This document shows, one piece after another, positions 4,087-60,738 of a stretch of 64,000 nucleotides of DNA. The stretch covers positions 1 through 64,000 of the forward strand of contig NZ_JACSIT010000083.1 in assembly GCF_014349155.1 (NCBI RefSeq), written 5' to 3'. Both the position numbers and the translations under genes were made by a program. How positions within the stretch are numbered: the first letter of the stretch is position 1; each line of letters begins with the position of its first letter. Below the pieces are notes generated by a model. That model ran no database searches, was not told where the DNA came from, and saw nothing but the letters and a program-made list of their open reading frames with translations. Origin of the DNA: Neolewinella lacunae. Lineage in GTDB: Bacteria; Bacteroidota; Bacteroidia; Chitinophagales; Saprospiraceae.

Positions 4087-4104
4087 GCACCTGCGTCCGC
4101 GCCC
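4087..4104 (-). repeat. Iterated 18-bp motif, copy 1
   Basis: Exact match to GGGCGCKGNCGCAGGTGC (minus strand). It overlaps the last base of the stop codon of the DUF779 gene, so it directly follows that gene. Confidence 0.85.
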
Positions 4105-4445
4105 TACTCCAGATCGGCTTCGGTAAGGATGCGTGAGTTGACCACGAAGCGTAGCCCCAGCGGAATTTCCGCCGAAAAACTGGCACCCCGGCCCGGGGTG
4201 ACGTCGAGGGTCAGGTGGGTATGCTGCCAGTATTCATACTGAAATTTGGACATGTAATAGGGGCAGCCGTGGACCTCCCCGAGCAACTCGTCGTTATCGT
4301 CAATGAAAAACTCTCCGTCGGGGAAGCACATCGGCGCGGAGCCGTCGCAACAGCCGCCGCTCTGGTGAAAAATGAGGTCGCCGTGCTGGGCGCGCAGGGT
4401 ATCGATGACGGCGCGCGCGGCGTCGGTAATGTCTACTTTGGGCAT
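4104..4445 (-). CDS. DUF779 family protein
   Basis: 113 residues, soluble, no signal peptide. The sequence matches the DUF779 pattern: a CxxGSAPMC-type segment (SGGCCDGSAPMC, about residues 29-40) and a C-terminal stretch HTHLTLDVTPGRGASFS followed by a short strand-rich end. The family has no established biochemical role. Its genes are repeatedly found next to NAD-dependent aldehyde dehydrogenases of the ExaC/AldB type, as here, where the dehydrogenase lies 77 bp upstream on the same strand. The paired cysteines could bind metal or a thiol cofactor (inference). A hairpin followed by a T-rich stretch sits just upstream of the start codon, so full read-through from the dehydrogenase is not guaranteed. 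Confidence 0.88.
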   Translation of the reverse strand: MPKVDITDAARAVIDTLRAQHGDLIFHQSGGCCDGSAPMCFPDGEFFIDDNDELLGEVHGCPYYMSKFQYEYWQHTHLTLDVTPGRGASFSAEIPLGLRFVVNSRILTEADLE

Positions 4446-4454
4446 GATTTTGGT

Positions 4455-4492
4455 AAATAAAACGCCGACTGGAAACAGTGCTCCAGCCGGCG
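4455..4492 (-). terminator. Hairpin terminator/attenuator between aldehyde dehydrogenase and DUF779 genes
   Basis: Stem CGCCGACTGGA (4463-4473) pairs with TCCAGCCGGCG (4482-4492) with one mismatch and an 8-nt loop. Read on the minus strand it is followed by TTTTATTT, the form of an intrinsic terminator. It lies after the dehydrogenase stop and 10 bp before the DUF779 start. Confidence 0.65.
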
Positions 4493-4522
4493 TAGGTTTT
4501 GGGGAATCGGGAAGAAACTAGC

Positions 4523-6046
4523 CTAGAAGAAGCCCAATTTTTCCTTGCTGTAGCTGATGAGCATGTTCTTCGTCTGCCGGTAATGATCGAGCATCATCTT
4601 GTGGTTTTCGCGGCCGATGCCGGATTTCTTGTAGCCACCGAAGGGGGCGTGGGCGGGGTAATCGTGGTAGCAATTGACCCAGACGCGGCCGGCTTTGATC
4701 TTGCGGGCCATGCCGTAGGCTTCGTGGGTGTCCCGCGTCCAGAGGCCAGCCCCGAGGCCGTAGAGGGTATCGTTGGCGATCTCGATGGCCTCGGCTTCGT
4801 CCTTGAAGGTGGTGATACAGACTACGGGACCGAAGATTTCTTCCTGGAAGACGCGCATCTTGTTGTTGCCCTTCAGCACGGTGGGCTGGATGTAGAAGCC
4901 GCCGGAGAGCTCATCGACGAAGGCGGGGCCGCCGCCCGCGAGGACTTCACAACCCTCTTCCTTGCCAATTTCGATGTACTTGAGGATTTTCTCGTACTGG
5001 TCGTTGCTGGCCTGGGCACCCATCATGGTGGAGGGATCGAGGGGGTGGCCCATTTTAATGGCCTTGACCCGTTCGATGAAGCGTTCGACGAACCGGTCGT
5101 AGATGGATTCATCCACCAGAATGCGGCTGGGGCAGGTGCAGACCTCGCCCTGGTTGAGGGCAAACATGGCGGCACCTTCGAGGCACTTATCGAAGAAGGC
5201 GTCGTCGGCATCCATCACGCTTTTCATGAAGATGTTGGGGCTTTTGCCGCCGAGCTCCAGGGTAACGGGGATGATGTTCTTGCTGGCGTACTGCATGATG
5301 AGCTGGCCGGTGGTCGTTTCACCGGTGAAGGCAATCTTGCAGATGTCGGGGTGGCTGGCCAGGGGCTTACCGGCTTCGATACCGAAACCGTTGACGATGT
5401 TGAGCACGCCGGCGGGCAGGATGCCGTCGATGAGTTCCATCAGGATGAGGATGCCGACGGGGGTTTGCTCGGCGGGCTTGAGCACGATGCAGTTGCCGGC
5501 AGCCAGGGCGGGGGCGATCTTCCAGGCCGCCATCAGGAGGGGGAAGTTCCAGGGGATGATCTGCCCGACGACACCGAGGGGCTCCCAGACGTTCATGGAA
5601 ACGGTGCTGCTGTTGAGCTCGGAGACGCCGCCTTCCTCGCCGCGGATGACGCCAGCGAAGTAGCGGAAGTGGTCGATGGCCAGGGGCAAATCCGCCGCCC
5701 GGGTTTCACGGATGGACTTGCCGTTGTCCCAGGTCTCGGCGCGGGCCAGGACTTCGAGGTTATCTTCCATCACCTGGGCAATCTTGAGGAGGAGGTTGCT
5801 GCGCTCGGTGGCCGAGGTGTTGTTCCAGTGGTCGGCTGCCTTCCAGGCCGCGGCAACGGCCTTATCGATGTCTTCCTTCGTGGAGCGGGGGATGCGCGTG
5901 AAGGAATTGCCGTCTACCGGCGAGATGTTGTCGAAGTATTCTCCGTTGGTGGGGGCGACCCATTCGCCGCCGATGTAGTTTTCGTACTGGTCCTTAAACT
6001 TAGGACGCGAAAGCGTAGGAGAAGAGGTGGTTGCTGTGGTACTCAT
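4523..6046 (-). CDS. NAD-dependent aldehyde dehydrogenase, ExaC/AldB type
   Basis: 507 residues, full length for the family. It should oxidise a short-chain aldehyde, most likely acetaldehyde, to the acid using NAD(P). Visible landmarks are PWNFPLLM and KPAEQTP in the cofactor-binding half, the general base Glu264 in LELGGKS, and the catalytic Cys303 in [11 protein letters not shown]; the CxC form is typical of the AldB/ExaC/acetaldehyde subgroup. The C-terminal EEIFGPV and PFGGYKKSG motifs are present. Neighbours support an acetaldehyde role: a DUF779 gene downstream, a divergent AraC regulator, and acetyl-CoA synthetase just beyond it. A TAnnTTTG-type box (6105-6112) and a direct-repeat operator candidate lie upstream, suggesting activation by the AraC protein. 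Confidence 0.93.
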
Positions 6047-6104
6047 GATCGATCGATTTTAATGTGATGGGGGCACCCAAAAACAGTGCGCCGCTTGATA
6101 CCTC

Positions 6105-6112
6105 CAAAAGTA
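6105..6112 (-). promoter_or_regulatory. Candidate -7 box for the aldehyde dehydrogenase gene
   Basis: TACTTTTG on the minus strand fits the TAnnTTTG element of Bacteroidota promoters. It lies 58 bp before the ATG, with the direct repeats at 6135-6166 immediately upstream. Confidence 0.5.
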
Positions 6113-6134
6113 GTCCGTCCTCCTCCCCGCCCCC

Positions 6135-6166
6135 TTGCACAATCCACCCAAGGAATTGCACAATCC
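6135..6166. promoter_or_regulatory. Direct repeat TTGCACAATCC x2: probable AraC-protein operator
   Basis: TTGCACAATCC occurs at 6135-6145 and identically at 6156-6166, a 21-bp step (two helical turns) in direct orientation, the arrangement AraC-family dimers usually bind. The pair lies between divergent TAnnTTTG boxes for the dehydrogenase and the AraC gene, and the second copy touches the AraC-side box. Confidence 0.68.
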
Positions 6167-6174: not shown

Positions 6175-6252
6175 TATGGCAATTGGCGCGAACCACCACC
6201 TGCGCTACGGCTTTTTATACCTACATTTATACATTGTTCTGAAAAACCGATC

Positions 6253-7152
6253 ATGCTCAACGTTCAGTCCTTGCCCGTCCGCCAGCTGCAGACCCTGGTG
6301 GAAAACCGGACCACTTTCACCGCCGACAGCTCCGCACTCAGTCTTTTCGAGACCCACGAGGAGGCCGGTGCCGTGCATTTGCGTTTCGATAAACCGGTGT
6401 TGGCCAGCATGATCCAGGGCCGTAAGGTGATGCACCTGCGCGACCGGCCCGGCTTCAATTTCCTGCCCGGCGAATCCGTCTTATTGCCCCCGGACGAGCT
6501 AATGGTGATCGACTTCCCCGACGCGCGGCCCGGCAGCGCCACGAAGTGCCTGGCGCTGGAGGTAGACCCTGCGGAGATCAACAAGGTGCTGGACGGCATG
6601 AACGAGCGCCGCCCGCGCTCCGACGGCAAAGACTGGAAGCGGGAACACAACAATTTCCACTTCACCAACGACCCCGGCATCACCCAGCTCCTGCAGCGCC
6701 TCGTTTACCTCTACGCCGAAAAACACCCGGCGCGGGATCTCTTTGTCGGGATGTCCTTACGTGAACTGCTCATCCGGCTGCTCGAGGCGGAGTCCCGCGA
6801 ACAGCACCTGCTCGACCCCAATAACCTGGCCACCAGCCAACCCATCACCGCCGCCGTTTCCTACATCCTCAATCATCTGGACGATAAGCTGACCATCGCC
6901 AGCCTCAGCCGCCTGGCCTGCATGAGCGAATCGGGCTTCCACCGGGCCTTCAAAAATGAGATGGGCATTTCGCCGGTCGATTTCATCAACGCCGAACGCA
7001 TCAAGCTGGCCAGGCGGCTGCTGCAGTACGAATCCCTGAGCATCCAGGAGATTGCCCTGCAGGCCGGGTTCAACAGCGCCAGCTACTTCACCCGCATGTT
7101 CAAACGGCAGTTCGGGATCAGCCCCGCCCGCTTTCAGGCCCAGGCCAGTTGA
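6253..7152 (+). CDS. AraC-family transcriptional regulator of the C2 module
   Basis: 299 residues from the ATG at 6253 (starts MLNVQSLP); the frame is open further upstream but that part overlaps the promoter region. The N-terminal half (about 1-190) is an AraC_N-type ligand/oligomerisation domain (VHLRFDKPVLASMIQGRK, GESVLLPP). The C-terminal 100 residues hold the two helix-turn-helix motifs (SLSRLACMSESGFHRAFK and SIQEIALQAGFNSASYFTRMFK). Proteins of this type are known as activators of aldehyde/alcohol dehydrogenase genes. Its position, divergent from the dehydrogenase and upstream of acs, with a two-turn direct repeat between the promoters, suggests it controls acetaldehyde/acetate use (inference). 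No helices for membrane insertion are seen. Confidence 0.9.
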   Translation: MLNVQSLPVRQLQTLVENRTTFTADSSALSLFETHEEAGAVHLRFDKPVLASMIQGRKVMHLRDRPGFNFLPGESVLLPPDELMVIDFPDARPGSATKCLALEVDPAEINKVLDGMNERRPRSDGKDWKREHNNFHFTNDPGITQLLQRLVYLYAEKHPARDLFVGMSLRELLIRLLEAESREQHLLDPNNLATSQPITAAVSYILNHLDDKLTIASLSRLACMSESGFHRAFKNEMGISPVDFINAERIKLARRLLQYESLSIQEIALQAGFNSASYFTRMFKRQFGISPARFQAQAS

Positions 7153-7172
7153 CCTCCCCCGCTCCTCTGTCC

Positions 7173-7221
7173 CTTCTCCCCCCCTTCGGGGGGTCGGGGG
7201 GGAGCACCTGCGGCCGCGCCC
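7173..7221 (-). repeat. Composite C/G-rich repeat containing iterated motif, copy 2
   Basis: The exact 18-bp motif (minus strand) is at 7204-7221. It is joined to a C-run/G-run hairpin that also accompanies the copies at 37454 and 60692. It lies between the AraC gene and acs. Confidence 0.8.
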
Positions 7222-7283: not shown

Positions 7284-9188
7284 ATGCTACCTACCCAAAT
7301 CACCTCTTTTGAACACTACCAATCCGAATACGCCCGCTCCGTCAACGATCCGGAAGGCTTCTGGGCCAAACAGGCCAGCACCTTCAACTGGCGGAAAAAG
7401 TGGGACCATGTACTGGAATGGAACTTTGAAGAACCTAACATCAAGTGGTTCCAGGGTGGCAAGCTGAACATCACGGAAAACTGCCTGGACCGCCACCTGG
7501 CCACCCGCAGCCAGCAAACGGCCCTGCTGTTTGAACCCAACGCGCCGGGTGACCCCGCACGCCACATCAGCTACCGGGAACTCTACGAGGAAGTCTGCAA
7601 AACCGGAAATGCCCTGCGCGAACTCGGCATCGGCAAGGGCGATCGCGTTTGTTTTTACATGCCGATGGTGCCCGAGCTGGCCATTTCCGTGCTCGCCTGC
7701 GCCCGCATCGGGGCCATTCATTCCGTGGTCTTTGCCGGCTTCAGCGCCCAGGCCCTGGCCGACCGGGTGAACGACGCCGACTGCAAAATGATCATCTGTT
7801 CCGACTACAATAAGCGCGGGAACAAGAACATCGGCGTGAAGGAAATCGTCGACGAAGCCCTGGCCATCGGCTGCCCCAGCGTGCAAACCGTGCTGGTGCA
7901 CCGCAATACCGGTGAGGAAATTGCCTGGGACGAAAGCTACGACGTCTGGTACCACGAAAAAGTGGACGGTCAAGCGGCGGAATGTCCGGCAGAGGAAATG
8001 GACGCCGAAGACGTCCTGTTCATCCTCTACACCTCCGGCAGCACGGGCAAGCCCAAGGGCGTCGTCCACACCTGCGGCGGCTACATGGTATACACCGCCT
8101 ACAGCTTCCTCAACGTTTTCCAGTACCAGCCCGGCGACGTCTACTGGTGTACGGCCGACATTGGCTGGATCACCGGCCACAGCTACATCGTCTACGGCCC
8201 GCTGCTCTGCGGCGCGACCTCGCTGATGTTCGAGGGCGTACCGACCTACCCCGACGCGGGCCGCTTCTGGGAGGTATGTGCTAAGCATAAAGTCAACCAA
8301 TTCTACACCGCCCCCACGGCCATTCGCGCGCTCATGGCGCAGGGCGACGAATTCACGGAGGGCTACGACCTGAGCCACCTCAAAGTGATCGGCTCGGTGG
8401 GTGAGCCCATCAACGAAGAAGCCTGGGAGTGGTACAAAAAGCACATTGGCAAGGACACCGTGCCGGTGGTCGACACCTGGTGGCAAACCGAGACCGGAGG
8501 CATGATGATCTCCGGCATGGGCGGACACAGTCCGCAAAAACCCACCTTCGCCGGTTATCCACTGCCGGGCATCCAGCCCTGCCTGGTCGATAAAAACACG
8601 ATGCAGGAAGAGGAGGGCAACCCCGCGGCGGGATTGCTCGCCATCAAATTCCCCTGGCCCAGCATCCTGCGCACCACCTGGGGCGATCACCTGCGTTGTA
8701 AACACACCTACTTCAGCACCATCCCCGGCATGTACTTCACCGGCGACGGCGCGCGGCGGGACGCCGACGGCATGTACCGCATCATCGGGCGGGTTGACGA
8801 CGTGGTCAACGTCTCCGGCCACCGCCTCGGCACGGCCGAGGTGGAAAACGCCATCGATGAGCACCCCCAGGTAGTGGAATCCGCCGTGGTGGGCTATCCC
8901 CACGACATCAAAGGCCAGGGCATTTACGCCTACGTTATTGTGGGCGCGGGCGCAGGTGCCGACGATGCCTTAAGAGCAGAGATTGTCGCGACGGTCCGCC
9001 AGGAAATCGGCCCCATTGCGAAGCCCGATAAGATCCAGTTCGTCTCCGCCCTCCCCAAAACGCGCTCGGGTAAAATCATGCGCCGCATCCTCCGCAAAAT
9101 CGCCGCCGGCGAGCAGGATTCCTTGGGGGACGTGAGTACGCTGCTCAACCCCGAGGTGGTGGAGGAATTGATTTTGGGGAGGGTGTAG
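7284..9188 (+). CDS. acs: Acetyl-CoA synthetase (AMP-forming)
   Basis: 634 residues, full length. It converts acetate, ATP and CoA to acetyl-CoA via acetyl-AMP in the cytoplasm. Evidence: N-terminal ACS domain (FNWRKKWDHVLEWN), the P-loop-like signature YTSGSTGKPKG at 249-259, the acetate-pocket region VDTWWQTETGG, the hinge region ending DDVVNVSGHRLGT, and the catalytic lysine in KTRSGKIMRR (Lys597), the usual target of reversible acetylation. It follows the AraC gene on the same strand after 131 bp and completes an acetaldehyde to acetate to acetyl-CoA route with the dehydrogenase. An exact copy of the iterated 18-bp motif lies inside the gene and encodes GAGAGA in a C-terminal loop. The stop codon overlaps a sequence also found at the ends of the MITE-like element near 52 kb. 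Confidence 0.97.
   Translation: MLPTQITSFEHYQSEYARSVNDPEGFWAKQASTFNWRKKWDHVLEWNFEEPNIKWFQGGKLNITENCLDRHLATRSQQTALLFEPNAPGDPARHISYRELYEEVCKTGNALRELGIGKGDRVCFYMPMVPELAISVLACARIGAIHSVVFAGFSAQALADRVNDADCKMIICSDYNKRGNKNIGVKEIVDEALAIGCPSVQTVLVHRNTGEEIAWDESYDVWYHEKVDGQAAECPAEEMDAEDVLFILYTSGSTGKPKGVVHTCGGYMVYTAYSFLNVFQYQPGDVYWCTADIGWITGHSYIVYGPLLCGATSLMFEGVPTYPDAGRFWEVCAKHKVNQFYTAPTAIRALMAQGDEFTEGYDLSHLKVIGSVGEPINEEAWEWYKKHIGKDTVPVVDTWWQTETGGMMISGMGGHSPQKPTFAGYPLPGIQPCLVDKNTMQEEEGNPAAGLLAIKFPWPSILRTTWGDHLRCKHTYFSTIPGMYFTGDGARRDADGMYRIIGRVDDVVNVSGHRLGTAEVENAIDEHPQVVESAVVGYPHDIKGQGIYAYVIVGAGAGADDALRAEIVATVRQEIGPIAKPDKIQFVSALPKTRSGKIMRRILRKIAAGEQDSLGDVSTLLNPEVVEELILGRV
8942..8959 (+). repeat. Iterated 18-bp motif, copy 3 (inside acs)
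   Basis: Exact match, in frame, encoding GAGAGA. This is the same reading phase as the copy inside the sugar porter gene. Confidence 0.8.
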
Positions 9189-9379: not shown

Positions 9380-11044
9380 TTATTTTTTAGCTGGCCATAT
9401 ACTGTTCAGGGGATAAAACTTTCCACCGAGGAATTTTACGCCTCCACTCCTTTCCTGATACAGGCTAATGTGATTAAATATTTCCCCGGGGAAGTAAATA
9501 TCCGTGATCACGGTGGCTCCCTCATCTCCAAACAGCTCTGCGGAAGCATGGTCGAAAAAGAGGTGCATTTGCACGGTATCGGATTGAACAACGCGGGGCG
9601 CACGAGTAACTTTATCAGCAAATGCTTCGGAAAAAGAATGGTCTCCGCTTTCCCGGCGGTCACTGAAAAACTCCTGATTTCCGGGGTGGTAACCTACCCG
9701 ATAGGCTTCGCCCAAATCATTGTTTAACAACACGCCGAAGGGGCTTGCTTCGGGTGACGTGATAAGAAAATCGAGGATCAACTCATAGGTACCCGACGCA
9801 TTCTTTTCTGGCGTGGCCGCAGGTGCAAACAAGGATTCAAGGGGCAGGGGTGTTTTGTCCATGGTGCTACCCGCGAGCACCTTTTCGTTGCGGCGAAGTT
9901 GTTGCAACTCCTTTACGGGTGTTGAGAATACCCGGTAACCGGCCGGCAGGCGATGAAGCTCCAGTTTACGGGGAAGCGTAGAGGCACTTCGCCATTTTTC
10001 GGTGGGAACTTCGCGGGCATATTGCCAGTTACTCATCCAGCCGATGAACAGGCGCCGGCCGTCGCTTTCGGGGATATTAGACCACGTTACCCCGGCGTAG
10101 TTGTCTCTTCCGTAATCCAGCCAAACTGCTTGCTCTGCGGTAACATCCGGTTTGAAGGTTTCGTCAAGCGTAAACACCTTACCATCGAAGTCTCCCACAA
10201 AGTACTGCGTGGCCGACCCACCATTGGGTCCACCAGGGTTGATGCTCGCGATCAAGACCCATTTTGTAGTACCGTCACCGACTACTTTCATCGGGAAAAA
10301 GTCGGGGCATTCCCATACGCCGGCGTGCGTGCCGTAGGTTTCACCAAATTCACTCAGGAATTCCCAATCGATGAGGTTGGGGCTTTTCCAGAACATCATC
10401 CGGTTTTGGGCGGCAAAGACCATTAGCCAGTATCCCCCTTTTTCGTACCAGCTAACCTTTGGGTCTCGGAAATCTCTGATGGGCGTAGTGTTGGGAACTA
10501 CCGGGTTGCCTGCGTACTTCTCCCAGGTTCGTCCTTTGTCGTTGCTGTAGGCGATGCCCTGGTATTGGTAATCCTGCCTTCCGGCTTTTTCCATTACCGA
10601 ATTGTGGTAAGTGAAGATCGCGATCAGCGGGCCCTTACCGTCCTTACCGAGTCCGCTGGTATTGTTTTTGTCAATAACTGCGCTACCGGAGAATATCCAT
10701 CCCAGGGTATCGGGGTAGAGTGCGATGGGGAGGTGCTCCCAGTGTACCAGGTCTTCGCTTACTGCGTGCCCCCAATGCATGGGGCCCCACACGGTACTGT
10801 CGGGATAGTATTGGTAAAAAAGGTGGTATTCCCCTTCGTAATAGACCATCCCGTTGGGATCGTTCATCCATTTTTCCCGAGGGGTGAAATGAAGCTGTGG
10901 CCGATGGGGTTCCTGAAAGTCAGTAACGTATTGTTGGTCCGTTTTTTTACTGCCGGCTTCAGTACCATCCTCACCGGTACCCGGCTGACACGATACGAAC
11001 AGCGCCAGCAACAGGAGGCAGAAAGATGGGAGGAAGATCTTCAT
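9380..11044 (-). CDS. GH32 lipoprotein: levanase / fructan beta-fructosidase
   Basis: 554 residues. A lipoprotein signal with the lipobox Cys19 (LFVSC) predicts anchoring to the membrane, probably at the cell surface. GH32 landmarks are all present: nucleophile Asp62 in WMNDPNG, transition-state stabiliser Asp194 in FRDP, and acid/base Glu246 in ECPDFF, followed by the C-terminal beta-sandwich. Family activity is release of fructose from levan, inulin or sucrose; exo or endo mode cannot be told from sequence alone. It is the last gene of the fructan locus and the only hydrolase in it. A degenerate copy of the iterated 18-bp motif (9809-9826) encodes APAATP in the linker between the two domains. 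Confidence 0.94.
   Translation of the reverse strand: MKIFLPSFCLLLLALFVSCQPGTGEDGTEAGSKKTDQQYVTDFQEPHRPQLHFTPREKWMNDPNGMVYYEGEYHLFYQYYPDSTVWGPMHWGHAVSEDLVHWEHLPIALYPDTLGWIFSGSAVIDKNNTSGLGKDGKGPLIAIFTYHNSVMEKAGRQDYQYQGIAYSNDKGRTWEKYAGNPVVPNTTPIRDFRDPKVSWYEKGGYWLMVFAAQNRMMFWKSPNLIDWEFLSEFGETYGTHAGVWECPDFFPMKVVGDGTTKWVLIASINPGGPNGGSATQYFVGDFDGKVFTLDETFKPDVTAEQAVWLDYGRDNYAGVTWSNIPESDGRRLFIGWMSNWQYAREVPTEKWRSASTLPRKLELHRLPAGYRVFSTPVKELQQLRRNEKVLAGSTMDKTPLPLESLFAPAATPEKNASGTYELILDFLITSPEASPFGVLLNNDLGEAYRVGYHPGNQEFFSDRRESGDHSFSEAFADKVTRAPRVVQSDTVQMHLFFDHASAELFGDEGATVITDIYFPGEIFNHISLYQERSGGVKFLGGKFYPLNSIWPAKK
9809..9826 (+). repeat. Degenerate copy of the iterated 18-bp motif (inside GH32 gene)
   Basis: TGGCGTGGCCGCAGGTGC differs at two positions from the consensus. 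It encodes APAATP in the GH32 gene, the same phase as the fructokinase copy. Confidence 0.45.
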
Positions 11045-18363: not shown

Positions 18364-19293
18364 GATCGGAATTCGTTTTTCAACCACTAGGTCTTTCAAA
18401 CTGTAGTTGGGCGTACCTCCCGTTTGGCTGGCAACGTACGCCCCAACTCTACAGGCGTAAGCCAGGCTCACCGCGGGGCCCTCTCCGCCGAGGTACCGGA
18501 TCAGAAAAGCAGCCAGAAAGGCATCTCCCGCGCCAATCGAATCGGCCACTTCCACGGCAATGCCCGGGTGTTCGTAATATCCACTATGGTCCAACAGGGT
18601 TGCTCCTTTGCCGCCCCGGGTAAGTACCACCGCCCCAAGCCCAAATTTTTCTAGCATTTTACCCAGTAATTCCCTGTCATCTCCCCACCAGCCACACCAA
18701 GCGCCAATCACTCGGAGCTCCTCCTCGTTTACCTTCACCAGGTCGGCGTGGCCAAGCAATTCCCGAACCGTCTTTTCGTTAAAAAAAGGTGCCCGGAGAT
18801 TTACGTCCATTACCCGCACCCTCGCCAGAAAAAGTAGCGTCCGTAAATGGCTTAAATTGGTTTCCGACCGCGCGGCCAGGCTGCCAAAAACCAGCGCTTG
18901 CGCCATGCTTACCGCAGTTTTTGTCTCCTCACTAATGCCAATTTGATCCCACGCGACGGGGCCGTGTATCGTGTATTCCGGCGTTTCGCGGTTGCGAAAA
19001 GTCACCCCAACCGTTCCGGTCTCAAGCACTTCATCTACCGGAACGGGGAGAGCGTCCAGGCCATGTTCACGGATAAAAGCCAGGATATCTTTGCCGAGTT
19101 CGTCGCGGCCAACCCGGCTGATGATGGCACTGCGGCCACCCAAGCGTTGTACGTGGTAGGCTACGTTCAAAGGCGCACCTCCAATGCGCTTTGCGGTGGG
19201 CATCAGATCGATGAGCGTTTCCCCAAAACAAACAATGGCAGGAAAAGCCGGGCGATCGTAAAGGGGCGCGGTCGCAGGTGCAGTGGAAGTCAT
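18361..19293 (-). CDS. PfkB-family fructokinase
   Basis: 310 residues from the ATG at 19293 (MTSTAPATAP); an upstream in-frame extension would overlap the transporter gene deeply and is rejected. Ribokinase-fold landmarks: N-terminal FGETLIDLMP, the GG-containing substrate loop IGGAPLNVAYHVQRLGG (about 37-53), and the signature DSIGAGDAF with catalytic Asp257. The family phosphorylates fructose or related sugars; the linked GH32 enzyme and sugar porter point to fructose. The start codon overlaps the transporter stop by ATGA, indicating translational coupling. An exact copy of the iterated 18-bp motif encodes APATAP at the N-terminus, just before the conserved fold starts. Confidence 0.93.
   Translation of the reverse strand: MTSTAPATAPLYDRPAFPAIVCFGETLIDLMPTAKRIGGAPLNVAYHVQRLGGRSAIISRVGRDELGKDILAFIREHGLDALPVPVDEVLETGTVGVTFRNRETPEYTIHGPVAWDQIGISEETKTAVSMAQALVFGSLAARSETNLSHLRTLLFLARVRVMDVNLRAPFFNEKTVRELLGHADLVKVNEEELRVIGAWCGWWGDDRELLGKMLEKFGLGAVVLTRGGKGATLLDHSGYYEHPGIAVEVADSIGAGDAFLAAFLIRYLGGEGPAVSLAYACRVGAYVASQTGGTPNYSLKDLVVEKRIPI
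19264..19281 (+). repeat. Iterated 18-bp motif, copy 4 (inside fructokinase gene)
   Basis: Exact match lying in the unconserved N-terminal tail of the kinase, read as APATAP. Confidence 0.8.
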
Positions 19294-20690
19294 TGGGCAA
19301 TGTTGGTTTTGAGCACAGTACCGAGTGCTTCGAGCGGAATACCTTTGGTTTCGGGCATCATGCGCCAAACGAAAAGCAACTGCAGTACCATCATAAAAGC
19401 GAAAAAGGCAAACACCGGAGCGGTACCCACCGTAGAGAAAAGCACCGGCACCAGTGAAGGAATAATCGCCGCCAATACCCAGTGCACGGAAGTCCCGAAA
19501 GACGTTCCACTCGCCCGCAGGTGATTGGGGAAAATTTCGCTGAGGAACACCCAGATCACCGTACCCTGCCCAATAGCGTGTGCGGCAATGAAAACAAAAA
19601 GAAACCCGGGCACGTACCAACCCTGCCAGCCCAGCCCAAAGGCCAAAGCCACCATACTCAGAGAAATGATGTAGCCCACGGAACCGATATACATCAACTG
19701 CCGACGGCCAAACCGATCAATTAAAGCAAGACCTAGCAGGGTAAAAACCAGGTTGACCACGCCAATCCCTACGCTGCTCAATAAGGCCGAACGCTGCTCC
19801 AGCCCAGCGGCCTCGAAAATGCGGGGCGCGTAATAAAGAAAGGCATTGATCCCCGAAAACTGGTTGAACGCGGCAAGCAGAAAAGCCAGCAGAAGAGGAA
19901 ACCGGTAGCGGGTTTGGAAAATCGTCTCAGCGCTATCCGCTCGTTGGTCTTCCGCTGCTATTTCAGCCATCATTGCACCTGCGTCCGCGCCCGGATGAAT
20001 GAGCGCCAAAACCCGCTTCGCTTCCTCCGGTTGCTTGCCCCGCGTCAGGAGCCAGCGGGGCGAACGGGGCACCCCCAAAACAAGTAAGGTGTAGATGAAG
20101 GCCGGGAGCGCTTCCACCCCAATCATCCACCGCCAGGCATTTTCCCCCATTCCACTCAGCAAGTAGTTGGAAAGAAAGGCTACCAGGATGCCAAACACAA
20201 TGTTGAACTGGTAGGTGGCCACTAGCTTGCCGCGGTCCGCCGCCGGAGCAATCTCAGAGATGTAAGTCGGTGCCGCAATGGTACTGACCCCTACCGCAAT
20301 GCCCCCCAGGAAACGTAAACTGGCAAAAACCCAAGGGTCACTTACCAGGGCCGAACCCAGCGCAGAAACGAAATAGAAGACGCCAATCCAAAGAAGGGTA
20401 GTTTTTCTTCCCAGGCGGTCCGTAGGTATTCCCCCAAACAGGGCACCGGCAACCGTTCCCCAAAGCGCCGAGGCCATTACCACCAGCCCATGAAACAGCT
20501 CACCCCGCCCCCACAGCTTCTGTAAGGGAATGTCGGCCCCCGAAATCACTACGGTATCGAAGCCGAAGAGAAATCCGGCCAGAGCCACTACAACAGACCA
20601 GAATAAAATTTTACTGTTTTGCAATTTGTCAACTTTAATGTTGGCAAATGTCGACTTATGAAAAACTTTAGGGAGGTAAATTAGTACCAA
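19290..20690 (-). CDS. MFS sugar porter (probable fructose importer)
   Basis: 466 residues, 12 membrane helices, inner membrane. Sugar-porter signatures are present: GFLFGFDTVVISGA in helix 1, the RxGRR-like loop GGIPTDRLGRK, RFLGGIAVGVSTIAAPTYISEIAPA, PRSPRWLL after helix 6, QFSGINAFLYYAP in helix 7, DRFGRRQL, and PETKGIPLE at the C-terminus. The annotated start is a TTG at 20690; a second TTG at 20624 (before the conserved NSKILFWSVV) is equally possible. It lies between the regulator and the fructokinase, and its stop overlaps the kinase start by 4 bp. Import followed by phosphorylation of free fructose is the likely role (inference from context). Confidence 0.93.
   Translation of the reverse strand: MVLIYLPKVFHKSTFANIKVDKLQNSKILFWSVVVALAGFLFGFDTVVISGADIPLQKLWGRGELFHGLVVMASALWGTVAGALFGGIPTDRLGRKTTLLWIGVFYFVSALGSALVSDPWVFASLRFLGGIAVGVSTIAAPTYISEIAPAADRGKLVATYQFNIVFGILVAFLSNYLLSGMGENAWRWMIGVEALPAFIYTLLVLGVPRSPRWLLTRGKQPEEAKRVLALIHPGADAGAMMAEIAAEDQRADSAETIFQTRYRFPLLLAFLLAAFNQFSGINAFLYYAPRIFEAAGLEQRSALLSSVGIGVVNLVFTLLGLALIDRFGRRQLMYIGSVGYIISLSMVALAFGLGWQGWYVPGFLFVFIAAHAIGQGTVIWVFLSEIFPNHLRASGTSFGTSVHWVLAAIIPSLVPVLFSTVGTAPVFAFFAFMMVLQLLFVWRMMPETKGIPLEALGTVLKTNIAQ
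19975..19992 (-). repeat. Iterated 18-bp motif, copy 5 (inside sugar porter gene)
   Basis: Exact match in frame, encoding GADAGA in the cytoplasmic loop after the PRSPRWLL motif. Confidence 0.8.
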
Positions 20691-27380: not shown

Positions 27381-28658
27381 ATGCAACCCCTAGCCGAGCG
27401 CATGCGCCCCCAATCGCTGGATGAATACGTCGGCCAGGCCCATTTGGTGGGGCCCGGGGCGGTCTTGCGGCGGGCGGTGGAGACCGGCCGGCTGCCCAGT
27501 TTTATCTTGTGGGGACCGCCCGGCGTTGGCAAAACCACCCTGGCCAAAATCATCGCCAGCCAATTGGCGGTGCCTTTTTACCTGCTTTCCGCCATCAATT
27601 CCGGGGTAAAAGACGTCCGCGATACGATCGACAAGGCCAAGCGCAGCCAGTTTTTCGACCGCGCCAGCCCCATCCTGTTCATCGACGAAATCCACCGCTT
27701 CAGCAAATCCCAGCAAGACAGCCTCCTCGGGGCCGTCGAGGCGGGCACCGTCACCCTCATCGGGGCCACCACCGAAAATCCCAGTTTCGAGGTCATCCCC
27801 GCCCTCCTCAGCCGCTGCCAGGTCTACGTCCTCGAACCCCTCGGCGCCGAAGATTTGCGCAGCATGGTCGAGCGGGCGCTGACGCAGGATGCAGTGCTCA
27901 GTAAACGAGCAGTGGAAGTCCAGGAGGACACCGCGCTGCTCCGCTACTCCGGCGGAGACGGTCGCCGCCTCTACAACCTCCTCGAACTGGTCACCAACAA
28001 CGCCGACCCCGCCGAGGCCATCACCATTACCGACGAGCTGGTCAGCACCCGCGTCCAGGAAAACCTCACCCGCTACGATAAAACGGGTGAACAGCACTAC
28101 GACATCGCTTCGGCCATGATCAAGTCCATCCGTGGTTCCGACCCCAACGGCGCCGTCTACTGGCTGGCCCGGATGATCGACGGGGGCGAAGACGTCAAAT
28201 TCATCTGCCGCCGCCTCATCATCTCCGCCTCCGAAGACATCGGCCTAGCCAACCCCAACGCCCTGCTACTGGCCACCACCGCCGCCCAGGCCGCCCAGCT
28301 TGTAGGCTACCCCGAAGCCCGGATCATCCTCAGCCAGGCCGTCATCTACCTGGCCACCAGCCCCAAGAGCAACTCCAGCTACCTGGCCATCAACGAAGCC
28401 CAGGCCGCCGTCCGCAACACCGGCACCCTGCCCGTCCCCCTGCACTTGCGCAACGCGCCCACCAAGTTGATGAAACAGCTCGACTACGGCAAAAACTACG
28501 ACTACAGCCACGATAACCCCGGCAATTTTCGCGCCCAGGAATACCTCCCCGATGCCCTCAGCGGCACGGCCTTCTTCCAGCCCAAGCCCGATAACCCCCA
28601 GGAAAAAGCCCTCCTCGAGCGGCTTAAGGCCTGGTGGCGGGGGAAGTACTATCCTTAA
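27381..28658 (+). CDS. rarA: Replication-associated recombination protein A (MgsA/RarA AAA+ ATPase)
   Basis: 425 residues, full length. Walker [10 protein letters not shown] (45-53), Walker [11 protein letters not shown] (about 98-107) and sensor 1 [12 protein letters not shown] are the RarA/WRNIP1 signatures. The C-terminal tetramerisation domain is present ([44 protein letters not shown] ... [23 protein letters not shown]). The protein acts at stalled replication forks with single-stranded-DNA-binding protein. The C-terminal CW-rich end matches family length. It is followed by repeat-rich DNA. Confidence 0.97.
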
Positions 28659-37453: not shown

Positions 37454-37500
37454 GGGCGCGGCCGCAGGTGCTCCCCCCCGCCCCCCCGAAGGGGGGAGTA
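37454..37500 (+). repeat. Composite C/G-rich repeat with iterated motif, copy 6
   Basis: Exact 18-bp motif at 37454-37471, followed by CTCCCCCCCG and a CCCCCCC-GAA-GGGGGG hairpin. The first 45 bases match the copy at 60692 except for one position in the motif. Confidence 0.85.
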
Positions 37501-37590
37501 GGTTGGCCCCCCAACCCCCAAAGGGGGAGCAGCGGGGGAAGTCCGGGGGCCAGCCGAGGCCTTAACCCCGCTGTTGAAAAGACGTTCGCG

Positions 37591-37608
37591 GCACCTGCGA
37601 CAGCGCCC
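37591..37608 (-). repeat. Iterated 18-bp motif, copy 7
   Basis: Exact match on the minus strand (K=T, N=T), 137 bp from copy 6 and inverted relative to it. Confidence 0.85.
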
Positions 37609-42285: not shown

Positions 42286-42347
42286 CGCCAGGGGAGGCCG
42301 CAGTTGGGGGCGGAGACCTTTGCGACGGACATTGCTGTTCAAGGCGC

Positions 42348-42355
42348 TATCTTTG
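42348..42355 (+). promoter_or_regulatory. Candidate -7 box for the DUF4290 gene
   Basis: TATCTTTG fits TAnnTTTG. Its last G is also the first base of the iterated 18-bp motif at 42355, so the motif would cover the transcription start site. Confidence 0.5.
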
Positions 42356-42372
42356 CACCTGCGTCCGCGCCC
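42355..42372 (-). repeat. Iterated 18-bp motif, copy 8
   Basis: Exact match (minus strand) in the glmS-DUF4290 gap, overlapping the TATCTTTG box by one base. Confidence 0.85.
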
Positions 42373-47286: not shown

Positions 47287-47304
47287 GGGCGCGGCCGCAG
47301 GTGC
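47287..47304 (+). repeat. Iterated 18-bp motif, copy 9
   Basis: Exact match in the divergent gap between the GNAT/ATP-grasp and M14 genes; 160 bp from the inverted copy 10, matching the panC arrangement. Confidence 0.85.
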
Positions 47305-47406
47305 GGAGTTGGCCCCGGTGAAAGCAAAGTAAGTCGCCTGATTTGCCAGCTGGGTTGTACTTTTCAATTTACCCCTATCTTCCGGCCCGAACCAAATGCT
47401 CCTGCC

Positions 47407-49962
47407 GTGCGCGCGTACCCGATCTTTGCTCTTCTCCTCTTCCTTTGCACCTGCGTCAGCGCCCCACTGCCCGGGCAAACCAGCAACTCCGAGGCCCCGC
47501 GCCCCCTGACGTACTACCTGCCCGCGCTGGATTACAACCCGGCCATTACCACGCCCGAGGAGTTTCTGGGCTGGCAGATTGGCGATTGGCACCTGAGCCA
47601 CGATCTTCAGCTGGCCTATATGCGCCTGCTGGCCAGCCAGAGTGACCGCATTGTGCTGGAAGAAATTGGCCGCACTTACGAAGACCGACCCCTAGTCAAC
47701 CTCATCTTCACCAGCCCGGCCAACCACGCCAAGCTCGGGGAACTGCGCGAAAAACACCTTGGCTGGAACGACCGCAACTCTGCGGTAAAAGCCAACATGA
47801 TCGACGAAATTCCCGCCATCCTCTACCAGGGTTTCAGCATCCACGGCAACGAAGCCAGCGGGGGCAACGCCGCCCCGCTGGTGGCCTACTACCTGGCCGC
47901 CGCGCCCGCCAGCGCCGTCGGCAAACTCCTGGACAACAACATCGTCCTCTTCGACCCCTGTTACAACCCCGACGGCTTTAACCGCTTCGCCAGCTGGGCC
48001 AATGTCCACAAAAACAAAAACCTGACCGCCGACGGGGCCGACCGCGAGTACAGCGAAGCCTTCCCCGGCGGCCGCACCAACCACTACTGGTTTGACCTCA
48101 ACCGCGACTGGCTCCCCGTCCAGCACCCCGAAAGCCGCGCCCGCATTGCCCAGTTCCACAAGTGGAAGCCCAACGTGCTGACCGATCACCACGAAATGGG
48201 CAAAGATGCCACCTTCTTTTTCATGCCCGGCGAGCCCACCCGCGTCCATCCCCTGACGCCGAAAATCAACCAGGAACTCACCTACAAAATCGGGCAGTAC
48301 CACGCCGCCGCCCTAGATGAGATCGGCTCCCTCTACTACTCCGGCGAGGGCTACGACGACTTTTACTACGGCAAGGGATCCACCTACCCCGACATCAACG
48401 GCTGCGTCGGCATCCTCTTCGAGCAGGCCAGTTCCCGCGGGCACCTGCAGGAGACCGAAAACGGCCTGCTGAGTTTCGCCTTCACCATCCGCAACCAGGT
48501 AGCTACGGCCCTGAGCACCCACGCGGCCTTTGCCGACCTGCGCAACAACCTGCTCACCTACCAGCGGGAGTTCCACCTGGCCCAAAACGTCACGAGCAAT
48601 GGCTACCTAGTGGACGCCGATGGCGACGCGGGCCGCACCCGGGAGTTCATCCAAATGCTCCAGCGCCACCAGGTCGACATCCGCCAAGACGGTCCGGGCC
48701 GCAACGCCCCCCGCTATTTCGTCCCCGAAACTCCCTTCACCAAGGCCATCTTTGATCCCATCACCACCTTCGAAGACAGCCTTTTTTACGACGTTTCGAC
48801 CTTCGTAATGCCCCACGCCTACAACCTGCCTTACGAGCGGGTGACCACGGGCGCGCCCAGAAACGGCAAGTGGCAGCATATTCCCAACGTCAGCATCCAG
48901 TCCGTGCCCACCTCCGCGCCGGCCGACTACGCCTATTTGCTGAGCTGGGACGATTACTACGCCGCCAAAGCGCTCTACCAGCTCCTCGCCGCCGGCGTCA
49001 ACGTGAAAGTCAGCAGCCGCCCCTTCCGGGCGGCTGACGGACAGTCTTTCAGCCGGGGCACCATCATGGTTCCCGTGGCGAACAACCAAACCATGGACCC
49101 GGCCGAACTGCACCGCCTGATCAATGAAGTTGAAGGCAACACCCACCTGGCATTCACGCCCGTAAGCACCGGCACCGTGGCCGAAGGACTCATGTTGGGC
49201 AGCCGCGATGCCTACCAGCCCCTCCGCCAGCCCAAAATTGCCCTCCTCATCGATGGCGGTGTCAGCAGCTACGACGCTGGCGAAACCTGGCACTTGCTCG
49301 ACCAGCGCTTCGGGATCCCCATCACCAAATTGCCCCTCTCCCGTGTGGGCCGCACCGATCTGAGCCGCTACAACACGATCATTATGGTCGATGGATCCTA
49401 CAACGACCTTGGTGCAGCGGGTACCGAAGCCCTCAAGCGCTGGCTTGGTCCGGGCAACGTCCTCATCACCCAAAAAAGGGCCTCCAGCTGGGCCGCAGCC
49501 AATGGCCTGGCCAACGTACGTACCCGCGTTGCTCCAGACCCCGACCGTAACGATAACACCCGCCGGGCCTACGCCAGCGCGGAAAAGGACAGTGGCGGAA
49601 AAGTCCTCGGCGGAGCCATTTTCCAGGCCCAGGGTGACCTGACCCACCCCCTGCTCTTCGGGATGCGCCGACCGGAAATCCCCGTCTTCAAGCGGAGCAC
49701 GCTGCTGTTTGAACCCAGCAGCAATGCCTACGCCTCCCCGCTGATGTACCGCGAAAAAGCGCTCTTGAGTGGCTACTCTCCCCGGGGGTTTGAACAGCAG
49801 CTGTCGAATACCGCCGCCGTAGTGGTCAGCGGCATCGGAGGCGGACGGACCATCTCTTTTGCCGACAACCCCAACTTCCGGGGGCACTGGTACGGCACCA
49901 ACCGCGTGTTCCTTAATGCTATTTTCTTTGGCGCTACGGTTGATGGGAGTACCACCGAATAA
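47407..49962 (+). CDS. Secreted M14-family zinc carboxypeptidase with GATase-like C-terminal domain
   Basis: 851 residues if the GTG at 47407 is the start, which places a signal peptide (YPIFALLLFLCTC) at the N-terminus; the open frame extends upstream without signal character. The M14 zinc site is visible: His146 and Glu149 in SIHGNEASG, His261/262 in TDHHEMG, and the catalytic Glu in VGILFEQASSRGH. From about residue 610 a class I glutamine-amidotransferase-like fold follows (IALLIDGGVSSYDAGETWHLLDQRFGI, YNTIIMVDGSYNDLG) without a recognisable catalytic cysteine. This layout is common in long secreted M14 peptidases of Bacteroidota. It hydrolyses C-terminal residues of peptides, substrate unknown. 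Copy 10 of the iterated motif falls in the signal-peptide codons. Confidence 0.9.
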   Translation: MRAYPIFALLLFLCTCVSAPLPGQTSNSEAPRPLTYYLPALDYNPAITTPEEFLGWQIGDWHLSHDLQLAYMRLLASQSDRIVLEEIGRTYEDRPLVNLIFTSPANHAKLGELREKHLGWNDRNSAVKANMIDEIPAILYQGFSIHGNEASGGNAAPLVAYYLAAAPASAVGKLLDNNIVLFDPCYNPDGFNRFASWANVHKNKNLTADGADREYSEAFPGGRTNHYWFDLNRDWLPVQHPESRARIAQFHKWKPNVLTDHHEMGKDATFFFMPGEPTRVHPLTPKINQELTYKIGQYHAAALDEIGSLYYSGEGYDDFYYGKGSTYPDINGCVGILFEQASSRGHLQETENGLLSFAFTIRNQVATALSTHAAFADLRNNLLTYQREFHLAQNVTSNGYLVDADGDAGRTREFIQMLQRHQVDIRQDGPGRNAPRYFVPETPFTKAIFDPITTFEDSLFYDVSTFVMPHAYNLPYERVTTGAPRNGKWQHIPNVSIQSVPTSAPADYAYLLSWDDYYAAKALYQLLAAGVNVKVSSRPFRAADGQSFSRGTIMVPVANNQTMDPAELHRLINEVEGNTHLAFTPVSTGTVAEGLMLGSRDAYQPLRQPKIALLIDGGVSSYDAGETWHLLDQRFGIPITKLPLSRVGRTDLSRYNTIIMVDGSYNDLGAAGTEALKRWLGPGNVLITQKRASSWAAANGLANVRTRVAPDPDRNDNTRRAYASAEKDSGGKVLGGAIFQAQGDLTHPLLFGMRRPEIPVFKRSTLLFEPSSNAYASPLMYREKALLSGYSPRGFEQQLSNTAAVVVSGIGGGRTISFADNPNFRGHWYGTNRVFLNAIFFGATVDGSTTE
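47447..47464 (-). repeat. Iterated 18-bp motif, copy 10 (inside M14 signal sequence)
   Basis: Exact match (minus strand), coding for CTCVSA at the end of the signal peptide. Confidence 0.85.
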
Positions 49963-54306: not shown

Positions 54307-54324
54307 GGGCGCGGCCGCAGGTGC
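54307..54324 (+). repeat. Iterated 18-bp motif, copy 11
   Basis: Exact match in the gap after the 2TM gene. Confidence 0.85.
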
Positions 54325-54428
54325 CGGGGAAGGGGACGGAGGAGCCGGGAACGCAGAAAAGCCGCCCCGTTAGGCAAAGTTTTCCATAAAATCCATGTTT
54401 ACCACCAAAATATCCCCTAAGTTTGTGG

Positions 54429-58884: not shown

Positions 58885-59018
58885 TTCAGTAGTCGGTAGT
58901 TCATAGTTCAGTAGTTCAGTAGTTCAGTAGTCGGTAGTTCATAGTTTACTGGTAGCTAATGAACTATGAACTATGAACTATGAACTATGAACTATGAACT
59001 ATGAACTATGAACTACTA
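58872..59018. repeat. Period-8/period-7 hairpin repeat supplying both stop codons
   Basis: AGTTCAGT units (period 8, with a larger unit repeated twice) are followed by GAACTAT units (period 7), so the left half pairs with the right half in many registers. The TAG of the amylase gene (58882-58884) and the TAG of the converging oxidoreductase (59016-59018, minus strand) both fall inside it. Confidence 0.85.
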
Positions 59019-60038
59019 AACTCCATACATCGCCACAATCGTAGCCACCACCTGCCGGCCTTCTTCGGCGGTAGTGGCTACGGTGGCTTTGCCGTGGAGG
59101 ACGTCGATGACGTTGTCGATGACGAAGTGGTGGTTGGCGGCCGAGCCTGCGTAGGGGCCGTAGTTGTTGGCCGGGCTGCTGGCGGGTAGGTCGGGCGGAA
59201 GCAGGCCTTCGACGTGGCAGTACCGCACTTCGTTCATGTACTGGCCACCGAGTTTTACCGTGCCTTTTGACCCGATGACGATGAGGGTAGACTCAAAATT
59301 GCGGTCCCAGATGGCGGTGCTGAAGTTGAGGGTGCCGAGTGCGCCACCAGCCAGGGAATAGTGTACGGTGCCGGCGTCGGCGAAACGGTGCAGGCCCTGG
59401 TGTTGCTGGTTGGCAAAGCGGGCGGAGGCCACTTCCACCGGCCCGAAGCACCAGCAAAGAAGATCGACGAAGTGGGCAAACTGGGTAAAGAGTACGCCGC
59501 CGTCCAGTGCTTCGTCGCCGTGCCAGGGGTGGGGGCGGCCGTCGGGCGGCACCGTGTAATAGCGGTGATCGCGGTTCCAGAAGCAATTGAGGTGAACTTG
59601 CAGGATTTCCCCCAGGCGTTCCTGCTCCAGCTGTTCCTTCAGCCAGGCCGAGGCCGGGCTGTAGCGATTTTGCATCACGCCAAAGACGTGGCGGCCGGCC
59701 GCGCGGGCCGTTTCAATGATGGCATCCGCACCTGCGACGGTCAGTGCGAGGGGTTTTTCGACCACCACGTGCAGGCCCGCCCGCAGGAGCAGTTCGGCCT
59801 GGGCGGCGTGCAAGCCGTTGGGGGTGCAGATGCAAGCGACGTCGGCGGCCAGCCCAGCGGCCAGGAAGTCCTCCAGGGCAGCAAAAAGGGGAACTGCTGC
59901 GGGTACACCCTCCGGCCAGGCCAGCTGGCGGGGGGGAAGGACATCGCAAATGGCCACCACCTCCGCCGCCGGATGCGCAGCCACCAGAGTAGCGTGCCGG
60001 CGGCCGATGTGCCCCAGGCCAACAATCAGAAAACGAAT
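59016..60038 (-). CDS. Gfo/Idh/MocA-family sugar-nucleotide oxidoreductase
   Basis: 340 residues if an ATT at 60038 is used. The first in-frame GTG (59984) would cut off the first strand and the dinucleotide loop. Upstream of it the frame reads RFLIVGLGHIGRRHA, the intact GxGxxG Rossmann motif, and is closed by a stop just before, with no ATG, GTG or TTG available. The rest is typical: ACICTPNGLHAAQAELLLRAGLHVVVEKPLAL, GVMQNRYSPASAWLKEQL, and a C-terminal LNCFWNRDHRYYT domain. The neighbouring WlbB/WbpD-like acetyltransferase, 23 bp upstream, suggests a WlbA/WbpB-type UDP-GlcNAc(A) 3-dehydrogenase in making an acetamido sugar (inference); the aminotransferase of that pathway is not in view. 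Confidence 0.88.
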   Translation of the reverse strand: MRFLIVGLGHIGRRHATLVAAHPAAEVVAICDVLPPRQLAWPEGVPAAVPLFAALEDFLAAGLAADVACICTPNGLHAAQAELLLRAGLHVVVEKPLALTVAGADAIIETARAAGRHVFGVMQNRYSPASAWLKEQLEQERLGEILQVHLNCFWNRDHRYYTVPPDGRPHPWHGDEALDGGVLFTQFAHFVDLLCWCFGPVEVASARFANQQHQGLHRFADAGTVHYSLAGGALGTLNFSTAIWDRNFESTLIVIGSKGTVKLGGQYMNEVRYCHVEGLLPPDLPASSPANNYGPYAGSAANHHFVIDNVIDVLHGKATVATTAEEGRQVVATIVAMYGV

Positions 60039-60061
60039 GGGAGCTAGCGTAGCGATGGTGC

Positions 60062-60661
60062 TTAGTTTTTCTTAGGGAAGGGGTGATCGGGATCGATGTG
60101 GCGGAACACTTTGTCGCCATCCAGGCGGTACACCTGCTGGGTGACCGGACAGATGGCCCGTCCCGCCTCGTTGAAGTGCAGGCGGCCCCCGGCTACGCTC
60201 ATCCAGCCAATCTGCCGGGCGGGATTGCCCACCACCAGCGCGAAGGGAGCCACGTCTTTGGTCACCACACTCCCCGCCCCCACGAAAGCGTGGTGAGCCA
60301 GGCGCACGCCACACACGATGACGGCGTTGGCCCCGATGGTGACCCCGTCTTCGAGCAGCGTCGGGCGGTACTCATCGCGGCGATTAACGGCGGCGCGGGG
60401 ATTGAGCACGTTGGTAAACACGGCCGAAGGGCCAATAAATACGTCATCGCCGCAGGTCACACCCTCGTACAGACTCACGTTGTTCTGCACCTTGCAGTTG
60501 TTGCCCAGGCGCACGCCCGTAGCCACAAAAACGTTTTGCCCGAGGCTGCAATTTTCGCCGATCTCGCAGCCCGCCATCAGGTGGCAAAAATGCCAAACCC
60601 GGGTATTGTTGCCAATGCGGGCGCCGGAGTCAACGATGGCGCTGGGGTGAATGGTAGCCAT
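60062..60661 (-). CDS. Hexapeptide-repeat N-acetyltransferase, WlbB/WbpD-like
   Basis: 199 residues from the ATG at 60661 ([17 protein letters not shown]). Left-handed beta-helix repeats run through most of the protein ([103 protein letters not shown]). The Asn/His-containing active-site region NVSLYEGV is as in WbpD/WlbB, which acetylate the 3-amino group of a UDP-2-acetamido-3-amino sugar. Paired with the downstream oxidoreductase, it points to synthesis of a di-acetamido sugar for surface polysaccharide (inference). The repeat at 60692 lies 31 bp upstream. Confidence 0.9.
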
Positions 60662-60691
60662 GGCGGAGGGAGTTGAAGTTGATAAAAAAAT

Positions 60692-60738
60692 GGGCGCGGT
60701 CGCAGGTGCTCCCCCCCGCCCCCCCGAAGGGGGGAGAT
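60692..60738 (+). repeat. Composite C/G-rich repeat with iterated motif, copy 12
   Basis: Exact 18-bp motif at 60692-60709 followed by the same C-run / GAA / G-run hairpin as at 37454 and (inverted) 7173. Confidence 0.85.

Follow-up and report, generated by a model that had tools for sequence, protein, structure and literature searches.

Why should an 18-bp word with two variable positions (K = G/T, N = any base) recur exactly a dozen times within 64,000 nucleotides of Neolewinella lacunae DNA? The stretch in question, hereafter the window, covers positions 1 to 64,000 of contig NZ_JACSIT010000083.1 (our C65), one of 154 contigs in the 5.8-Mb genome that we call G000. We find ~1,000 copies of the word scattered across this genome, a second box ~19 bp downstream, and distinct but related words in sister species. 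We call the 18-bp word the head, the second box the tail, and both together the element. Our comparative analysis favors reading the word as the head box of a DNA uptake or self-recognition sequence specific to the genus, with a probability of roughly 0.6. This preference rests on dialects that track phylogeny, the in-place origin of copies, balanced strands, an excess of copies in intergenic DNA, inverted pairs, and the further box.

Abundance and architecture of the element

A genome-wide count, which the initial annotation of the window had recommended, gave 987 exact copies in G000 (505 on one strand and 482 on the other) and none of the pattern read backwards. Distributions were taken from a sample of 856.5 kb, or 15% of the genome, that includes the window. 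This sample held 171 exact copies vs. expectations of 0.001 and 0.005 under order-2 and order-5 Markov models, in line with the earlier estimate that chance would supply far fewer than one. Counts at zero, one, two, three, and four mismatches were 171, 37, 27, 46, and 209, falling to a trough between the perfect copies and those due to chance, so most occurrences of the word are perfect; 104 of the 171 exact copies carried G at K together with C at N. Variation had at first seemed confined to these two positions because the exact pattern was used for the search. The 37 one-mismatch copies show otherwise, deviating mainly at positions 1, 8, and 13.

Copies were evenly divided between strands, both in the sample (85/86) and on its longest contig (42/38 over 380 kb, with the origin not mapped). 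According to our own hexamer-based gene model, a crude caller, 119 of the 171 copies fell in intergenic DNA, even though such DNA makes up only 17.5% of the sample. The 52 genic copies were split 26 per strand, and one of the three phases on each strand was nearly empty (0/26 and 1/26), probably because Arg- and Cys-rich peptides would result there. Mean spacing between copies was 4.95 kb, with a coefficient of variation (CV) of 0.88. Among the 12 pairs closer than 300 bp, 10 were head-on, 2 were tail-on, and none were on the same strand; random placement would give ~9.5 pairs of any kind. A single stretch of the sample longer than 16 kb lacked the word at up to two mismatches: 20 kb of another contig (C22 125952–145997; L037, L038), with five called genes, one of ~2,236 codons.

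A weakly T-rich stretch lies before the head, and A-R-R-G comes after it. Expectation maximization on 130 non-hairpin copies recovered the tail box, AAGGAGCAARGNAAGTC, with a log-likelihood of 362 vs. 41–56 in five shuffles. The resulting matrix, trained on 130 of the copies later scored and controlled with upstream and random stretches, found a tail of at least 7 bits within 100 bp downstream of 150/171 copies, compared to 17/171 upstream and 204 of 2,000 random 100-bp stretches. The tail was present in 45 of the 52 genic copies. Measured from the head's terminal GC to the tail's GC, the distance was 18–20 bp in 72 of 108 copies with no hairpin (mode 19), while modal distances were 41 bp with one hairpin (16/34) and 62 bp with two (6/8).

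These hairpins are C/G-rich and start shortly after the head in 41 of the 171 exact copies. When the whole sample was searched for them, 61 of 65 C/G hairpins had a head (at up to three mismatches) within 100 bp upstream, and 47 of these directly followed it. Of the remaining four, one stood behind an evident head with an extra base, as judged by eye, and three were elsewhere. They take the form TCCCCCC...GGGGGGA or a second form and occur in the window at 7177–7203, 37472–37497, and 60710–60735. The hairpins appear to have been inserted, mostly right after GGTGC, and resemble a small element that is strict in its choice of target; our guess is that a single-strand (Y1-type) transposase may have moved them. 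The ~21-bp steps in distance suggest that both boxes may be read from the same side of the DNA helix, although the modes of 41 and 62 need not imply helical phasing because hairpin length is near-constant.

Within the window, a re-scan with the pattern reproduced every coordinate and strand of the 12 exact copies in the initial annotation, as well as its two two-mismatch copies at 9809 (+) and 32689 (−), and added three three-mismatch matches. These 17 matches at up to three mismatches compare with a mean of 1.11 and a maximum of 4 in 100 dinucleotide shuffles. The earlier placement relative to genes fared less well. Eight exact copies had been called intergenic and four genic, the latter in three reading phases, whereas our caller gives nine and three, with the genic copies (8942 in acs, 19975 in a sugar-porter gene, and 47447 at the start of an M14 gene) using two phases. 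The copy at 19264, previously assigned to a fructokinase N-terminus, precedes the trimmed start of a pfkB-family gene. Both reported inverted pairs, 37454 (+)/37591 (−) and 47287 (+)/47447 (−), are indeed head-on pairs. Tail scoring covered 15 copies (the 12 exact, both two-mismatch, and one of the three three-mismatch matches) and placed the best tail at 17–22, 41–43, or 62 bp, with two copies reaching only 7 bits. The scored elements are as follows.

4055–4104 (−): intergenic element; head 4087–4104, tail 4055–4071, distance 22
7151–7221 (−): element with one C/G hairpin; head 7204–7221, hairpin 7177–7203, tail 7151–7167, distance 43
8942–8987 (+): element within the acs coding sequence; head 8942–8959, tail 8971–8987, distance 18
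9809–9855 (+): two-mismatch element, genic; head 9809–9826, tail 9839–9855, distance 19
19264–19308 (+): element, intergenic by the trimmed start; head 19264–19281, weak tail (7.0 bits) 19292–19308, distance 17
19947–19992 (−): element within the sugar-porter gene; head 19975–19992, tail 19947–19963, distance 18
27874–27920 (+): three-mismatch element with a strong tail; head 27874–27891, tail 27904–27920, distance 19
32658–32706 (−): two-mismatch element, genic; head 32689–32706, tail 32658–32674, distance 21
37454–37543 (+): element with two C/G hairpins; head 37454–37471, first hairpin 37472–37497, tail 37527–37543, distance 62
37560–37608 (−): element; head 37591–37608, weak tail (7.1 bits) 37560–37576, distance 21
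Head-on pair: left arm 37454–37543 (+), right arm 37560–37608 (−)
42324–42372 (−): element; head 42355–42372, tail 42324–42340, distance 21
47287–47335 (+): element; head 47287–47304, tail 47319–47335, distance 21
47418–47464 (−): element at the start of the M14 gene; head 47447–47464, tail 47418–47434, distance 19
Head-on pair: left arm 47287–47335 (+), right arm 47418–47464 (−)
54307–54355 (+): element; head 54307–54324, tail 54339–54355, distance 21
60692–60760 (+): element with one C/G hairpin; head 60692–60709, hairpin 60710–60735, tail 60744–60760, distance 41

Dialects within the genus and the origin of copies

Related genomes, which the initial annotation had suggested consulting, also carry the word. 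It occurred exactly in 18 of 20 other genomes of the genus, at 7–432 copies (432 in G018), and in none of 19 genomes from other genera of the family and order. In a collection of named genomes, at least 80 loci contained it. Among the 80 listed, 47 came from Neolewinella or Lewinella or from metagenome-assembled genomes (MAGs) of Saprospiraceae or Bacteroidia, with carriers including Neolewinella persica, agarilytica, aurantiaca, and antarctica, Lewinella MAGs, and unnamed Saprospiraceae and Bacteroidia MAGs. All nine listed loci with two matches fell within those 47, and the other 33 listed were from other taxa with a single match each.

A scan of viral contigs also returned at least 80 loci, and the five with two matches were inspected. 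One contig filed as viral, IMGVR_UViG_3300009467_000002 (L191, L220), contains the exact head four times within 44.6 kb; to the eye, some of these heads have a tail-like box. It may represent a phage of the genus that uses its host's word or a misfiled piece of chromosome.

Genomes G001 and G010 lack the home word. For 12 of the other 20 genomes in the genus, one 100-kb region each was searched for dialects, with longer words assembled from overlapping k-mers, and the samples from G001 and G010 revealed different dispersed words. The G010 word, CAAAGTAGCARNG, is present there in 1,222 copies (603 + 619) and in 0–3 copies in each of 24 other genomes, with a backward control of 0–5 per genome. 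Close pairs in G010, counted by hand among ~100 listed places, comprised 8 head-on, 4 tail-on, and 0 same-strand pairs. The second word, GSCGGAGCGCAGGW, numbers 402 copies in G001, 155 in its sister G006, and 0–33 in the other 23 genomes (backward control 0–2), and is therefore present in low numbers in many members of the genus. Only these two dialects were counted genome-wide; all others come from the 100-kb samples, and some are weak. Words of the same design were found in G019 (GGGCGCGGTCGCGGGTGCAA), G011 (GGGCGGGGCCGCAGGTGC), G015 (GCGCAGGTGCAA), and G006 (TTTTGCGCCGGAGCGCAGGA), while G017 and G004 both gave GGACGCAGGAGC, with an additional GCGGGAGCAA form in G004. Outside the genus, samples of 94 kb from G021, 51 kb from G022, and 84 kb from G023 contained no comparable dispersed word (the pieces of G024, at 8.6 kb, were left out).

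Shared words coincide with close relationship. A tree built from one gene, Acs (20 rows, without G018), recovered G001/G006 (support 100/96), G004/G017 (100/99), and G012/G016 (100/99) as sisters and joined G010 to G015 (90/89). The first two sister pairs share words, as does, more weakly, the third. Within the same comparison, Acs of G002, G003, G009, G013, and G019 (L327, L326, L329, L328, and L325) was only 62–63% identical to that of G000, vs. 78–88% for the other 14, and these five represent a replaced or paralogous gene.

The initial annotation had also proposed examining orthologous sites, and this gave an answer at half of those tried. Three of six sites were readable (8942, 19975, and 7204); the alignment did not run through the site at 9809 or 19264, and at 4087 it did so with an unclear result. 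At the acs site (8942), all 15 genus orthologues aligned through the site share the same net length, 12 of them without gaps, and four more loci aligned partially only. The word is absent from 11 of these 15, while G005 and G018 have it with one mismatch; G007 and G014 have it with two and retain the tail box. At the sugar-porter site (19975), the word is exact in G005, where the alignment shows 24 additional bases immediately upstream, has one mismatch in G018, and is missing from G007 with the word length unchanged. At the intergenic site (7204), aligned without G005 because its stretch was too long, G018 and G007 carry heads with one and two mismatches, respectively. Both lack the hairpin, which was therefore probably added in the G000 line. 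The alignments at these three sites indicate that the word arose in place by substitution, not by insertion.

Candidate functions and the machinery of competence

If the word marks DNA for uptake, a putative surface receptor of the competence machinery would bind the element on double-stranded DNA, and fragments from kin that carry it would be preferentially imported and recombined. Such biased import, or molecular drive, would multiply near-perfect copies and maintain them wherever coding constraint permits. A shift in receptor preference could then cause the whole set of copies to drift to a new dialect. We do not expect a type IV pilin as the receptor. More tentatively, and at somewhat less than even odds, DNA self-recognition in Bacteroidota may have evolved independently of type IV pili, with a two-headed receptor that reads both boxes on one helix face and tolerates hairpins of ~two turns. 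Under the same proposal, receptor evolution would have driven dialect switches at ~1,000 sites within the genus, including the complete change in G010.

Neither known type of uptake machinery turned up clearly in G000. ComEC (PF03772) was found in all 24 genomes searched, but its presence in 10 of 14 control genomes makes it a weak point that says little. The transformation machinery of Riemerella anatipestifer, also a member of Bacteroidota, comprises a DUF5689 protein and its outer-membrane neighbor, an HHH protein, a DUF1343 protein, ComEC, DprA, ComF, and RecA, and one DUF5689 member is described as essential in a paper on its transformation (PMC8459023). The main text of that paper contains none of the terms “uptake sequence,” “uptake signal,” DUS, or USS. 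Like the Riemerella system, our genomes have ComEC throughout and, in G010, a pair of DUF5689 and outer-membrane proteins. Unlike it, G000 and 19 of the 20 other genus genomes yielded no such pair (HHH, DUF1343, DprA, and ComF were not searched). DUF5689 matches were limited to G010, G021, G022, G024, and, weakly, G023; of the 25 genomes, the remaining 20, including two that are <90% complete, had none. Two of 14 control genomes have DUF5689 as well, so its presence does not prove competence. The G010 pair (L359:5673–10601) places an outer-membrane-receptor-like protein beside a protein with three DUF5689 stretches. The partner protein (933 residues, L359:5673–8474) has the same distribution as DUF5689 at E 1e-20; in Pfam it hits a TonB plug and a carboxypeptidase-regulatory-like domain, each below its cut-off. 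G010 is thus the sole genus genome with the pair and also the one with the most divergent word, but this coincidence is a single case and proves nothing. We rejected the Riemerella-type pair as the reader of the word in G000, where it was not found.

Several results weigh against an uptake function. Beyond the lack of the Riemerella-type pair in G000 and nearly all of its relatives, no clear type IV pilus motor (PF00437) was detected; partial matches occurred in all 24 genomes, but 12 only just reached or passed the 24.9-bit cut-off (the best scored 25.5) and G000 fell below it, and no search was made for pilin or secretin families. The outgroups that do have the DUF5689 gene pair showed no comparable word in their small samples. 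Dialects were not equally clear across the genus: G012, G016, and G020 gave weak CGCGGGTGC forms that were no stronger than some other enriched k-mers, and the 100-kb sample of G008 had no clear dialect. In convergent gaps, 19 of 22 copies were oriented like the nearest gene. We know of no hairpin inserts in the DNA uptake sequences (DUS) of Neisseriaceae or the uptake signal sequences (USS) of Pasteurellaceae. Among the papers listed in our searches of open-licence PubMed Central, none reported on uptake or competence in this genus.

How does the uptake reading compare with other explanations? The roles first suggested for the word were a chromosome-organization word, a DNA-uptake word, and a tiny mobile element. 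Of these, an uptake word fits best because of the species-specific dialects, the strand balance, the intergenic enrichment, and the inverted pairs. Alternatively, a nucleoid or chromosome-organizing protein specific to the genus, with two DNA-reading modules, could bind the element; direct selection on chromosome structure would keep ~1,000 sites, and the protein's evolving specificity would produce dialects. This would suit box distances that cluster at 19, 41, and 62, a CV of spacing below the value of 1 for a random process (without a significance test), and the fact that no uptake receptor was found. However, strand polarity is absent, most copies lie in intergenic DNA, where substitution is cheap, and a change of word within the genus would demand the replacement of ~1,000 sites by direct selection. 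Given the strand balance and dialect turnover, we disfavor this explanation and consider it unlikely. A polar word that serves replication or recombination, of the FtsK-orienting polar sequence (KOPS) or Chi kind, would likewise be short, dispersed, and abundant. We rejected it and regard it as the most improbable of all, since strands are balanced both genome-wide and on contigs of up to 380 kb (origin not mapped).

Repetitive extragenic palindromic (REP) elements and bacterial interspersed mosaic elements (BIMEs), which are associated with REP-associated tyrosine transposases (RAYTs), are dispersed, mostly intergenic, and found in inverted pairs, all of which they have in common with our element. 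A REP-like repeat, or one like a miniature inverted-repeat transposable element (MITE), mobilized by a transposase of the Y1 (RAYT) or another kind, could also account for the number of copies, and 20 of the 21 genus genomes have Y1 transposase matches. The C/G hairpins have the look of insertions. The head itself does not: unlike a mobile unit, it came and went without length change at the three readable sites (the other three aligned too poorly), and the flanks of hairpin copies share nothing obvious outside the element by eye. Nor was there any link to the two Y1 genes of G000, which have no head with fewer than three mismatches within ~1.5 kb (one three-mismatch and one four-mismatch match lie at one of the two loci), and G018 combines 432 copies with no Y1 match, albeit in a fragmented assembly. 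We therefore rejected a mobile element for the head and judge this origin to be quite improbable. An RNA-level element, such as a terminator or processing signal, seemed slightly less probable again. Its best evidence is that the ten head-on pairs fold strongly when single-stranded (−54.5 to −94.3 kcal/mol, without a shuffled control) and that, beside the bias in convergent gaps, 21 of 33 copies in divergent gaps are oriented opposite to the nearest gene. Still, single copies in co-directional gaps ran 33 with and 30 against the nearest gene's direction, head-on pairs were spread over all gap classes, with four each in divergent and co-directional gaps and two in convergent ones, and genic copies were equal on both strands. 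This mixture of gap classes, together with the lack of any Rfam match in the window, led us to reject the RNA-level reading. The orientations in gaps place the head towards the nearer gene, and this may be plain geometry, as the element reaches ~45 bp past the head on the tail side only.

Relation to known uptake sequences

Among the open-licence PubMed Central papers listed in searches on Bacteroidota uptake or competence, on Neolewinella repeats, and on the core of the word, none described this word or element. As of 2007, Pasteurellaceae and Neisseriaceae had described uptake sequences (PMC1939737); where a receptor is known or predicted, it is a type IV minor pilin (PMC12616744, PMC12061091). 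DUS occur in dialects that follow phylogeny (PMC3630211), and uptake sequences lack orientation bias (PMC1939737) and show inverted pairs and an intergenic excess (PMC2397512). Our element resembles the DUS of Neisseriaceae in having copies in the hundreds to thousands, dialects that track phylogeny, balanced strands, an intergenic excess, and inverted pairs. By contrast, DUS are 10–12-mers whose reader is ComP, a type IV minor pilin (PMC12061091), whereas here an 18-bp head is joined by a second box and the search for a type IV pilus motor gave no clear match. The arrangement of boxes resembles the USS of Pasteurellaceae, in which a core is followed by less conserved, AT-rich regions ~two helical turns downstream (PMC12616744), compared to 19 bp here. 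Yet the downstream box of our element is purine-rich and sequence-specific, while that of USS is an AT tract.

If the uptake reading is correct, an independent case in Bacteroidota would mean that DNA self-tagging evolved more than once, through different receptors. A genus with several dialects would also allow the co-evolution of receptor and word to be read from genomes, and the word would be of practical help in the transformation of Lewinella-like marine bacteria.

Two further kinds of repeat were seen in G000. One of its Y1 transposase genes (L279, C123 near 378391) sits amid long overlapping open frames of repetitive sequence, which probably form an array of its own and differ from the element. 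In addition, the 10-mer TAGTTCATAG and its overlaps were over-represented in the 856.5-kb sample, at 60 copies vs. 0.21 expected, and probably reflect tandem repeats.

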